Virus record (IMG/VR): IMGVR_UViG_3300048591_000295
Coordinates: 1-21,833 of that record
Reading direction: 5' to 3' (one strand)
DNA length: 21,833 bases
Source of the DNA: a virus
The notes beneath the pieces are model-generated. The model saw only the letters and a list, made by a program, of their open reading frames with translations, was not told the origin of the DNA and made no database searches. Positions 8,276-10,864 of this stretch are shown here, one piece after another. The stretch's first letter is position 1. Every line of letters begins with the position of its first letter. The translations under genes were made by a program, and so were the position numbers.

Positions 8276-8932
8276 TTACTCCTTATTTAGGTATTCTTCT
8301 AGTTTTTCGGCTAGGAATTTACCTACTTTTGATTTATCAATTTCTTCACTCCCTTTAAATGAAAAGCCAAAAAACACATTTCCAGACCAAGTAGAATAAT
8401 CAACTCCAACGTGATCAACCTTAACCCTTTCCTTGACTCGTTTGGCCCATTTGCCTTGACGGTATAATTCTAGGTCGTAGTAAAATAACTGATCATCTTT
8501 TTTTATATAATCCCATTCCTCATTTCCAGATTTACTTAACAAATAGTTTCCATCTACGCTAGGGCTATTAAATTTTTCACCAATCTTAATCTCCCCAAAC
8601 AACTCAAACGCCTTAGCTTTCAGTTGATTGACGTAGGCCTGTTCGGTTGAGGGTTTAATCATTAAGTGATTTACCCAAATCCCATGTTCTTTTGTTTGTA
8701 TAATTTTATAAGAAGTCCCATATCCTAAGAATTGGGAAAAATGAGAATCTAAAACTTTAAATATTTGACCTTTCTTAAAGTTAGCTCCATCTTCAGTTAA
8801 TTCGATAAAATCCCATTCATCCTTGGTATTGATAGCTGAGAAGGTAGGATTAGACAAAACAACCTCGCATTTCATACCCTCCTTTTCCGCTTGCTTCTTT
8901 AGCTTTTCGATACGTTGCTCTAATGTTTTCAT
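8276..8932 (-). CDS. Unknown protein with internal duplication, in the capsid-gene position
   Basis: I do not recognise a family for this 218-residue protein. The N-terminal 20 residues are a charged helix (EQRIEKLKKQAEKEG). Two similar halves can be seen: a helix ending in L-K-x-x-A, then a loop with a proline, then EWDFIEL at 39-45 and EWDYIKK at 139-145, exactly 100 residues apart. The rest is rich in aromatic residues (YYDLELYRQGKW, WSGNVFFGFSF), which suggests a compact alpha/beta fold. It is A+T-rich compared with the tail genes and is followed by its own terminator. Its ATG overlaps the stop of the 62-residue gene upstream. The position, between portal and tail genes, is where capsid genes are usually found, but nothing here resembles an HK97-fold capsid protein or a protease. 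It may be late cargo. Confidence 0.72.
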   Translation of the reverse strand: MKTLEQRIEKLKKQAEKEGMKCEVVLSNPTFSAINTKDEWDFIELTEDGANFKKGQIFKVLDSHFSQFLGYGTSYKIIQTKEHGIWVNHLMIKPSTEQAYVNQLKAKAFELFGEIKIGEKFNSPSVDGNYLLSKSGNEEWDYIKKDDQLFYYDLELYRQGKWAKRVKERVKVDHVGVDYSTWSGNVFFGFSFKGSEEIDKSKVGKFLAEKLEEYLNKE

Positions 8933-9117
8933 AACAAATTCAATTTAGCCTTTCTGAACGCTTCTTGTTCACTGTTTGCAATATCCGTATCGAATATACC
9001 GTTGTAATTGATCCAATAGCCCCAGCCCGTGAAAAGCTTAAATACTCCTATTGATTTGTTTGGGAAAGTACCTTTGTCGTACATTTCAGCCGCCTGTGAT
9101 CCTGTGAATACGTTCAT
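8929..9117 (-). CDS. Small unknown protein after the RNA locus
   Basis: This 62-residue protein begins MNVFTGSQAAEMYDKGTF and contains an aromatic centre (FKLFTGWGYWINYNG) and a charged C-terminal helix. No family is recognised. Its ATG is preceded by AAACTAAAACAGAT, the same A-rich leader seen before several other genes in the window, which supports this start. Its TGA overlaps the ATG of the next gene (ATGA), so the two are co-translated. It follows the tRNA-like gene and the possible pseudoknot, and could be expressed from the RNA-locus promoter at 9447-9478. Confidence 0.65.
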   Translation of the reverse strand: MNVFTGSQAAEMYDKGTFPNKSIGVFKLFTGWGYWINYNGIFDTDIANSEQEAFRKAKLNLL

Positions 9118-9178
9118 ATCTGTTTTAGTTTAAGTTCTGAAAAGTTGCCCGTCTTTCCGAGCTGTCATATGGGGTAAG
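9118..9178 (-). other. Leader of the small gene at 9117; no further structure seen
   Basis: This part of the 379-base gene-free stretch (9118-9496) holds the A-rich leader just ahead of the ATG. The best -7 candidate, CAACTTTT, is a poor match. I see no ORF or strong hairpin in it. Confidence 0.4.
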
Positions 9179-9252
9179 GTCTCCATTTATTTCCTGTCAG
9201 GGGAGACTCCACGACAGACAGGCCAGATGTTTGCAGTTACCCATAAGCAAAC
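9179..9252 (-). ncRNA. Structured RNA: hairpin plus possible H-type pseudoknot
   Basis: Read on the minus strand, GTTTGC (9252-9247) pairs with GCAAAC (9234-9229) around a 12-base loop. It is followed by four 6-base segments in the order a, b, a', b': CCTGTC (9222-9217), GTCTCC (9207-9202), GACAGG (9198-9193), GGAGAC (9184-9179). The interleaved pairing a-a' and b-b' defines an H-type pseudoknot with loops of 9, 3 and 8 bases. The last loop is AAATAAAT; an A-rich third loop lying in the minor groove of stem 1 is common in known pseudoknots. It ends 61 bases before the ATG of the 62-residue gene. It may be a 5' regulatory element or part of a larger RNA with the adjacent tRNA. No known riboswitch class is recognised. 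Confidence 0.45.
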
Positions 9253-9259
9253 CAACGAG

Positions 9260-9331
9260 TAAGGGATTGGGACTCGAACCCAAATGTGCCAGATTTGCCG
9301 TCTGGAGCGTTCCATTTCCGCCATTCCCTTA
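9260..9331 (-). tRNA. tRNA-like gene, anticodon read as GCA (Cys), atypical
   Basis: The minus strand folds as a tRNA. TAAGGGA pairs perfectly with TCCCTTA for the acceptor, the D arm has GCG/CGC with GG in the loop, and the anticodon arm is CCAGA-CGGCAAA-TCTGG. A 5-base variable region follows, then the T arm TTGGG-TTCGAGT-CCCAA with a fully canonical T loop. Read by position the anticodon is GCA, for cysteine. Two features are unusual: base 33 is G instead of the near-universal U, and there are three bases rather than two between acceptor and D stem in this fold. The alternative acceptor register restores U8 but breaks pairing. CCA is not encoded. It may be a functional phage tRNA with altered decoding, a tRNA mimic or a decaying copy. 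It lies 4 bases after the nested-stem RNA, in the same transcript. Confidence 0.7.
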
Positions 9332-9335
9332 ATTT

Positions 9336-9442
9336 GTCGGGTTAAACAGGGTTCAATACCTGCTACTCTTAATTAGCCATAGATTGAGTACGGTAGGATA
9401 CAGGGCTACCTTTACCTGCCTTTAATCAGCCATTAACCCGAC
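9336..9442 (-). ncRNA. Candidate multi-branched RNA closed by a 10-bp helix
   Basis: A 107-base segment is closed by GTCGGGTTAA and TTAACCCGAC, a perfect 10-bp helix. Inside, read on the minus strand, are three hairpins in a row: GGTAG/CTACC (9-base loop), TACTC/GAGTA (17-base loop) and CAGG/CCTG (8-base loop). About 22 unpaired bases follow the first outer strand. No ORF covers the segment. The predicted transcription start of the promoter at 9447-9478 falls at or within a few bases of the first base of the outer helix, so the RNA would begin with its own closing stem. It is followed by the tRNA-like gene. I do not recognise the fold as a known class; the hairpins on their own are short, and the case rests on their nesting in a perfect outer helix. 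Confidence 0.55.
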
Positions 9443-9446
9443 TCAA

Positions 9447-9478
9447 CAAACCTAAACAAATACTAATTAACAAACAAA
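9447..9478 (-). promoter_or_regulatory. Consensus promoter for the RNA/tRNA locus
   Basis: On the minus strand TTTG (9478-9475), 20 bases, TAGGTTTG (9454-9447) fits the Bacteroidota consensus fully. A second TTTG lies 4 bases closer (9474-9471). It starts just after the portal gene and points into the 9336-9442 RNA, the tRNA-like gene and the small genes beyond. Confidence 0.8.
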
Positions 9479-9496
9479 CAAAAGCCCGAATTTATT

Positions 9497-10864
9497 TTAC
9501 TCGGTTGGCTCCATATCCAACTCACTCAACCCTAAATCCGATAGCCTAATATACCCTGAAGGAATAAGAACCTCATCCGGATTGACCTCTACTCCATAAC
9601 CCAAAGCCTGTCTAATCTCGGTCTGGCTGAATACCCCTGCCTGTCGCATCCAAGCTACCAATTCCTTTTTGTCCGCTTCGAGTTCAGGATAAACATCGGT
9701 ATCTGACATATATACAAGCGAGTCATCGCCATACCATTCCCGAAGCTTCATAGTCCGAATGTCATCAGACTTTCTCAAAAGAGGGATAACGCAATTGGTA
9801 ATTACCCTTACATCACCTGAATCTGAGTTAGCAAGCGTTCCATCGGGTTGAAGCAACTGACTAGGATAGCCGTAAATGTTAGCTATCTGCCGTTCCAAGT
9901 CCTTATTAAACTCCAAGATTTGAAGATCGACAGGGCTAAGACCTATCTGAACCCATTTAACATCGGCCGGAGTAATAATGATCGATCCTGCTTTATGCGC
10001 TCCCGTATGGTTCTGAACAAAGTCATCATTGATGGCTACCGCTTGCTCTGGAGTCAATTCAGTTCCCGCTACTGAACCGCTTGGGTTATTGCCTGAAATG
10101 ATACCAGCAGGGCCCATATTGGCAAATAGATTGCCTTGGGCTAAGTCAGCATATCTCTTTTGGCTAATCTGATTCCTAGCCGAACCTAAAGGGCTGAATC
10201 CCCAGAAGCTATTCTCATATCCCTGATCTTCACCTACCGGATTGAAGTACTTGAAATGGGTAATATTAGCCTTTGGAATAGTCTTATTATAAGCATAGGT
10301 AATCGCATAGCCTTCAATTGGATCTCTCCTATTACCTGACATCACAGGCTTGACGCATGGACTAGGTACTGACCATAATTCTACAGGTTGCTTCGCCCGT
10401 TCGCCTGAACCGGGACTTGCAGCGTATTCAATAGCGTTCCCCGTAATAAGGCAATAAGCGAAACTAGCCTCCCTTAATTCCCTACCTGACATGATAGGGT
10501 TAGGCCGATCCATCAATTCTAAGAACGGGTGATTATCTATTTGCTCGAATGCCTTGACCCGTAACTGCGCTAATTCAAATGCCTGAGCCTTGGACTTTAG
10601 ATATTTGACTTGAGAAAAGTATTTAGCTGCTGCCCTCTTATCTTTGATCCGCATTACCTGAGGCGTGGCATCTGCAGCCTTTTCAGCTATTCTAGAAACT
10701 AGGCTTTGAACTATCGGAATTGATTTAAAGGCTTTGGTGACGAAGATCGAGTCTAAATTGTCAAACGGGACGAATATTCCGTTTACAAAAGTCCAAGAAA
10801 GTCCCACTGGCACCCCTAACTCTTTTTTCTTTGTGCTGGAAGAAAAGGCTTTAAATAGCTTCAT
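9497..10864 (-). CDS. Portal protein, HK97 family
   Basis: The 455-residue protein has the length and motifs of HK97-type portals. It has the N-terminal region KSIPIVQSLVSRIAEKAA (about 47-64), NHPFLELMDRPNPIMSGREL (about 110-130), a segment AYCLITGNAIEYA, and a C-terminal wing with NKDLERQIANIYGYPSQLL followed by a helix rich in charged residues and EIRQALGYG. Twelve copies form the channel through which the terminase packages DNA and to which the tail attaches. It follows the terminase genes on the same strand, the usual order, but a plus-strand gene lies between them. Directly after it one expects prohead protease and major capsid protein, yet the next 379 bases have no gene. The start ATG at 10864 (MKLFKAFSSS) has no closer competitor. 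Confidence 0.92.
   Translation of the reverse strand: MKLFKAFSSSTKKKELGVPVGLSWTFVNGIFVPFDNLDSIFVTKAFKSIPIVQSLVSRIAEKAADATPQVMRIKDKRAAAKYFSQVKYLKSKAQAFELAQLRVKAFEQIDNHPFLELMDRPNPIMSGRELREASFAYCLITGNAIEYAASPGSGERAKQPVELWSVPSPCVKPVMSGNRRDPIEGYAITYAYNKTIPKANITHFKYFNPVGEDQGYENSFWGFSPLGSARNQISQKRYADLAQGNLFANMGPAGIISGNNPSGSVAGTELTPEQAVAINDDFVQNHTGAHKAGSIIITPADVKWVQIGLSPVDLQILEFNKDLERQIANIYGYPSQLLQPDGTLANSDSGDVRVITNCVIPLLRKSDDIRTMKLREWYGDDSLVYMSDTDVYPELEADKKELVAWMRQAGVFSQTEIRQALGYGVEVNPDEVLIPSGYIRLSDLGLSELDMEPTE

Follow-up and report, generated by a model that had tools for sequence, protein, structure and literature searches.

The tRNA-Cys locus and its promoter

The window, by which we mean the whole 21,833-nt stretch of viral DNA analysed here, is a fragment of a tailed phage in which genes for the terminase small and large subunits, the portal protein, an ERF recombinase and a BT4734/PriCT-type primase are present. 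The nearest portal proteins from isolated phages are those of Cellulophaga phages, at about 30% identity; two further viral loci, L002 and L003, encode portal proteins 93% identical to that of the window. The portal gene (9497-10864) is separated from a 62-aa ORF (8929-9117) by 379 nt that contain no ORF of at least 60 aa. Read on the minus strand, this gap holds a predicted promoter, a segment closed by a helix (element A), a tRNA-Cys that is identical in the window, L002 and L003, and a second structured segment (element B) that begins at the 3' end of the tRNA (Table 1).

Table 1. Features of the region between the portal gene and the 62-aa ORF, with the helices of element B.
Feature	Position	Strand	Basis or remark
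Weak intrinsic-terminator-like hairpin	9486-9504	-	Terminator scan; at the 3' end of the portal gene, ahead of the tRNA operon
Bacteroidota-type promoter, TTTG-N20-TAGGTTTG	9447-9478	-	Pattern scan; predicted to drive the tRNA operon
Element A, putative 5' leader	9336-9442	-	10-bp closing helix, arms 9433-9442 and 9336-9345; fold, shuffles, arms pairing in L002/L003
tRNA-Cys (anticodon GCA), CCA not encoded	9259-9331	-	ARAGORN; Rfam RF00005, 38.8 bits
Element B, double-pseudoknot RNA family member without a hammerhead	9165-9260	-	Covariance model R1 built without the window; family covariation
Element B, P1	9247-9252/9229-9234	-	GTTTGC/GCAAAC
Element B, P2	9240-9245/9168-9173	-	TATGGG/CCCATA
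Element B, P3	9217-9222/9193-9198	-	CCTGTC/GACAGG
Element B, P4	9202-9207/9179-9184	-	GTCTCC/GGAGAC
Small hairpin, GCTC-GGAAAGAC-GGGC	9147-9162	-	Recurs beside other copies of element B

The promoter shows both boxes with a spacer of 20 nt upstream of element A, and the same spacing is found in L002. The first-pass annotation had placed a full-consensus promoter 4 nt before the first base of the helix; the distance was confirmed, but the promoter is of the Bacteroidota type, and a sigma-70 promoter was rejected because a sigma-70 scan gave no match at that place. Sites of the form TTTG-N18-21-TANNTTTG, which we take to be the Bacteroidota promoter pattern, occur seven times in the window against an expectation of 0.81, an excess that makes a host from the Bacteroidota probable. 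When the stem that could form from +1 was compared at the seven promoter-like sites of the window, it reached 10 bp at element A and at most 6 bp at the other six. Terminator-like hairpins were about as numerous in the scan as expected by chance; the one listed in Table 1 is kept in L002 as AGCCCGAAAATAAATTCGGGCTTTTTG.

Element A as a probable paired leader

The perfect 10-bp outer helix reported from the first reading was recovered (GTCGGGTTAA/TTAACCCGAC), as was the tRNA-like gene 4 nt beyond it, which is the tRNA-Cys(GCA). When the intergenic region was shuffled with its dinucleotides preserved, 6 of 300 versions (2%) contained a perfect Watson-Crick stem of such length, so that the helix alone is only moderately unusual. 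The three consecutive hairpins that it was said to enclose were not confirmed, as the centroid structure consists of the closing helix and one hairpin only; the minimum free energy structure of the minus strand includes interior hairpins. Folding energy on the minus strand did not stand out from shuffled sequence either (z -1.71, with 13 of 200 shuffles folding equally well). Since the stem arises in 2% of shuffles and the minus-strand fold is unremarkable, the sequence of the window by itself is no proof of an RNA. The plus strand of the same segment folds far better than its shuffles (z -4.2), which, like the modest minus-strand z-score, speaks against a leader RNA on the minus strand, although the changes seen in L002 favour that strand.

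The comparison with L002 and L003, which are identical to each other in this region, was more informative. Both keep the promoter and the tRNA-Cys, and in place of element A they carry an unrelated sequence of 64 nt. Its arms, fixed in the same register by the promoter and the tRNA, continue to pair and extend the stem to 17-19 bp. From the window to these relatives, arm pairs 1-5 are unchanged, pair 6 goes from G-C to T-A, pair 8 from T-A to G-T, and pairs 7, 9 and 10 change on one side, with no pair broken. The 19-bp stem of L002 is the longest among 143 phage tRNA upstream regions, where shuffles reached a maximum of 13 bp. Element A of L002 folds to -21.3 kcal/mol on the minus strand against -13.9 kcal/mol on the plus strand, and the minus strand is likely to be the RNA strand because the G-T pairs of L002 would become A-C mismatches on the plus strand. 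As the comparison comprises two distinct homologous sequences only, the pairing of the arms in two lineages is suggestive but not conclusive evidence for an RNA.

Further copies of element A were sought by several routes. An Rfam scan gave no match even at E 5, in keeping with the earlier statement that no known family was recognised, and neither the element nor the whole intergenic region was found in known phages. A search of IMG/VR with a motif from the interior matched a near-identical contig only, and homologous portal loci in viral contigs supplied no further copies, because the next gene there mostly follows directly after the portal gene. No additional locus bearing element A was recognised in a search with a tRNA-Cys motif, and no prophage was found among species-genome contigs with a portal alignment. 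In L028, a 68%-identical relative, a tRNA-like gene (2483-2553) likewise follows the portal gene, without a comparably long stem; the post-portal position may thus be an insertion hotspot for tRNAs, as L028 suggests. L002 also carries a permuted tmRNA (2226-2449, RF04321, 51 bits; likewise at the equivalent position of L003) adjoining a tRNA-Tyr, and its source is a probable Bacteroidota phage. The tRNA-Tyr and the permuted tmRNA are both missing from the window, apparently through a deletion between 10-nt copies of GGGCAACTTT.

Because the interior is unrelated in L002 and L003 while the arms remain paired, element A is most plausibly a structure-only leader at the 5' end of the tRNA operon and not a conserved dedicated small RNA; selection would seem to be confined to the stem, with its placement and pairing. 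With a predicted transcription start on or beside the first base of the closing helix, the operon transcript would have its 5' end sequestered in a stem, which may slow 5'-end-dependent decay and keep leader and tRNA from misfolding together. RNase P would then cut 4 nt past the stem, at the 5' end of the tRNA, to release a short closed leader RNA. The earlier proposal that the RNA opens with its closing stem, ahead of a tRNA, is supported in this form by the promoter match, the spacing from the predicted start and the arm covariation in two lineages. Its other part, that this is a dedicated small RNA, is weakly supported, as the interior differs in length and sequence in the nearest relatives (107 versus 64 nt).

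We consider it unlikely that element A is a trans-acting small RNA or decoy freed by RNase P, with an interior evolving fast along with its target. The closed stem at +1 and the 4-nt tail left by the RNase P cut would yield a stable RNA of 111 nt, and the interior hairpins of the minimum free energy structure fit such a role; nevertheless, the interior has been replaced entirely, by a sequence 43 nt shorter, in relatives with a 93% identical portal protein, its motif matched no other IMG/VR contig searched, and the z-score of -1.7 is unexceptional. A non-conserved interior argues against a sequence-specific small RNA. The instability of the island, in which two RNA genes have gone missing between the GGGCAACTTT copies, would accord with a decaying or transient insertion, in which case the helix would be the remnant of a former RNA gene within a tRNA island prone to recombination; we regard this as improbable, since compensatory changes keep the arms paired in both lineages and the stem is even longer in L002. 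That element A is a degenerate tRNA is barely credible, for all its tRNA-like length and a closing stem beside a tRNA: neither ARAGORN nor Rfam (RF00005) made a tRNA call there even at E 5, the tRNA-Cys being the only one, no T-arm stands at the right place and the L002 version is a single long hairpin. The degenerate tRNA was rejected on the absence of both calls. The structured leader is the reading we consider more likely than not for element A.

Element B and its relatives

Over 200 nt comprising the tRNA-Cys and its 3' sequence, the window and L002 are 99.5-100% identical, whereas their portal DNA is 85% identical. A gapped pattern derived from the sequence 3' of the tRNA matched a similar element in a phage contig of 168 kb, whose BLAST relatives were phages of Enterobacter, Pectobacterium and Dickeya, and the refined pattern matched in 68 IMG/VR contigs. 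When aligned, these share four helices arranged as a double pseudoknot, with P1 interleaving P2 and P3 interleaving P4, and the conserved segments ATCTGG, GGAG and GGAATAA(C/A)TGGA. Among 59 distinct members, P1 is paired in 98% against 65% with shuffled partners, P3 in 99% against 79%, and the variable pair of P4 appears as all four Watson-Crick types. In an alignment of 28 members, from which the window was excluded and in which the hammerhead (see below) was excised and its flanks joined, 99.1% of cells are paired against 77.6% when shuffled, 15 of the 24 pairs have double changes, and covariation is 0.586 against 0.150, a value that none of 500 shuffles reached. All seven pairs of P2 covary. 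Sliding the partners destroys the covariation of the alignment. An extra covarying position links the 5' CGTGGG to the AACTGGA segment, being G-C in 46, T-A in 9 and with one exception. A covariance model built from the 28 members (R1) matched the window's element B at 62 bits (E 3e-16), the next match in the window having E 0.6, and four isolated phages outside the model at 61-73 bits, namely Microcystis phage Mwe-JY26, Arthrobacter phage Constance and Mycobacterium phages Gaia and phiGD24-3. Counting the enterobacterial phages and the probable host of the window, the family spans four host phyla. The window's element B is thus a member of a widespread, tightly conserved double-pseudoknot phage RNA family.

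Most members carry an additional module. A CTGANGA...GAAA motif precedes the core at 38 of 46 loci with the forward order and at all 27 permuted loci; in the one permuted case scanned, L134, it matched Hammerhead_1 (RF00163) at 24.7 bits (E 6e-4), under the Rfam gathering score. Cleavage is predicted immediately 5' of G(U/C)GGAG. The hammerhead lies within the P3 loop in the forward order, while in the permuted order it leads the element and a hairpin has formed from what was the outer end, so that the two forms are circular permutations of one RNA. No hammerhead core (CUGANGA...GAAA...NUH) was found in element B of the window, where the P3 loop is too short. Since the hammerhead-less copies (the window, L131, L141, L148, L171 and L173) keep the core, the core presumably has a role that is independent of the hammerhead and would work without it.

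A tRNA lies within 250 nt of 21 of 74 loci, against a mean of 6.3 and a maximum of 13 in 1000 random placements; most of the 74 have none within 250 nt in the sequence available, a point against tying element B to tRNA operons. In L146, L158, L171 and L187, element B occupies the interval between two tRNAs, leaving only 0-2 nt unfilled. A single phage array in L133 (1808-13142) comprises 21 tRNAs, element B, a GOLLD RNA and a permuted tmRNA. A lambdoid prophage of E. coli CFSAN061763 (L184, 5001-5281) has a permuted copy that is flanked by the Q antiterminator and holin genes and overlaps no annotated feature. By BLAST, this permuted form is matched at least in part in 518 of 5426 complete E. 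coli genomes (about 10%), with 14 of the 518 covering at least 80% of the query; 121 of the 560 matching places are on plasmids and others on chromosomes. A pattern search of 84,980 species genomes returned no match, which contradicts the BLAST result, and this zero is not relied on. The small hairpin with the GGAAAGAC loop, preceded by TGACA, recurs by element B in L121, L138, L149, L156 and L164; nine instances lie within 300 nt of element B and five in the rest of the 1.35 Mb (both strands), and it is possibly a second small module beside element B.

Interpretation and relation to known systems

The minus-strand stretch 9496-9120 is probably a compact operon of structured RNAs belonging to a tailed phage, itself probably of Bacteroidota, in which the portal 3' end is followed by a promoter, element A as 5' leader, tRNA-Cys and element B. 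In such an operon, tRNA processing would excise element B as a discrete RNA; in other members the hammerhead of the P3 loop would cut the polycistronic transcript directly 5' of G(U/C)GGAG, and P2 and P3 would hold the cut halves together. No family in Rfam 15 matched element B, and neither RefSeq annotation nor full-text literature, queried also with the conserved letters and leaving most subscription journals outside its scope, contained a description of it. Element B appears to be a member of a new phage RNA class, a claim of novelty that concerns element B and not element A. In its full form, the proposal is of an unreported double-pseudoknot RNA class of about 100 nt in phages of Bacteroidota, Pseudomonadota, Actinomycetota and Cyanobacteriota, freed by tRNA-processing cuts, with an optional hammerhead and natural circular permutations, and directed at a host component that is conserved throughout bacteria; we would give it an even chance.

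A system that separates tRNAs is a tentative and rather doubtful alternative for element B. The hammerhead would cut between tRNAs, the pseudoknotted core would position it, and the purpose would be like that of the theta ribozymes considered below. Both the hammerhead core in most members, including the RF00163 match in L134, and the exact abutment to tRNAs would be expected of such a system, but the window and five other copies keep the core without a hammerhead, and many copies lie away from tRNAs, the E. coli prophage copy between Q and holin among them. This alternative can be compatible with a leader role for element A. Element B points to a broadly distributed phage RNA family that covaries strongly and that, in the queried form, occurs in about one-tenth of complete E. 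coli genomes, with no annotation found. Through its tRNA abutment and optional hammerhead, the family lends itself to direct tests in laboratory phages and bears on the question of why non-tRNA RNAs occur in phage tRNA islands.

Leaders with a 5' stem-loop stabilise bacterial transcripts, ompA being one example. Element A would have such a stem starting at its predicted +1, although it precedes a tRNA and not a coding mRNA, and a stabilising effect is putative; alone, it would be an ordinary leader hairpin, real but modest, of a known kind. The nearest published idea for element B is that of the theta ribozymes, HDV-like RNAs beside phage tRNAs in Bacteroidota and Bacillota phages that were proposed to process tRNA 3' trailers (PMC10879173). 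Element B is likewise a structured phage RNA directly beside a tRNA, but the ribozyme associated with it is a hammerhead in P3 that is missing from the window's copy, and Rfam HDV-like models had no match in 9120-9500 at E<=5. Hammerheads have been described in phages and prophages, where they are intergenic and flank phage genes (Perreault et al., 2011; PMC3088659); the passages concerned describe the hammerhead itself and not the core of element B, which is a double pseudoknot with an optional hammerhead. The first-pass annotation had pointed to large phage ncRNAs that lie beside tRNAs, such as GOLLD and ROOL. This parallel does not extend to element A, which is unrelated to them in sequence, and the Rfam models of both had no match in the window; it does apply to element B, on the opposite side of the tRNA-Cys, one relative of which shares a tRNA array with GOLLD. 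Like GOLLD (RF02032) and ROOL, element B is a phage ncRNA among tRNA genes, but it differs from them in its length of about 95-150 nt and in its fold.
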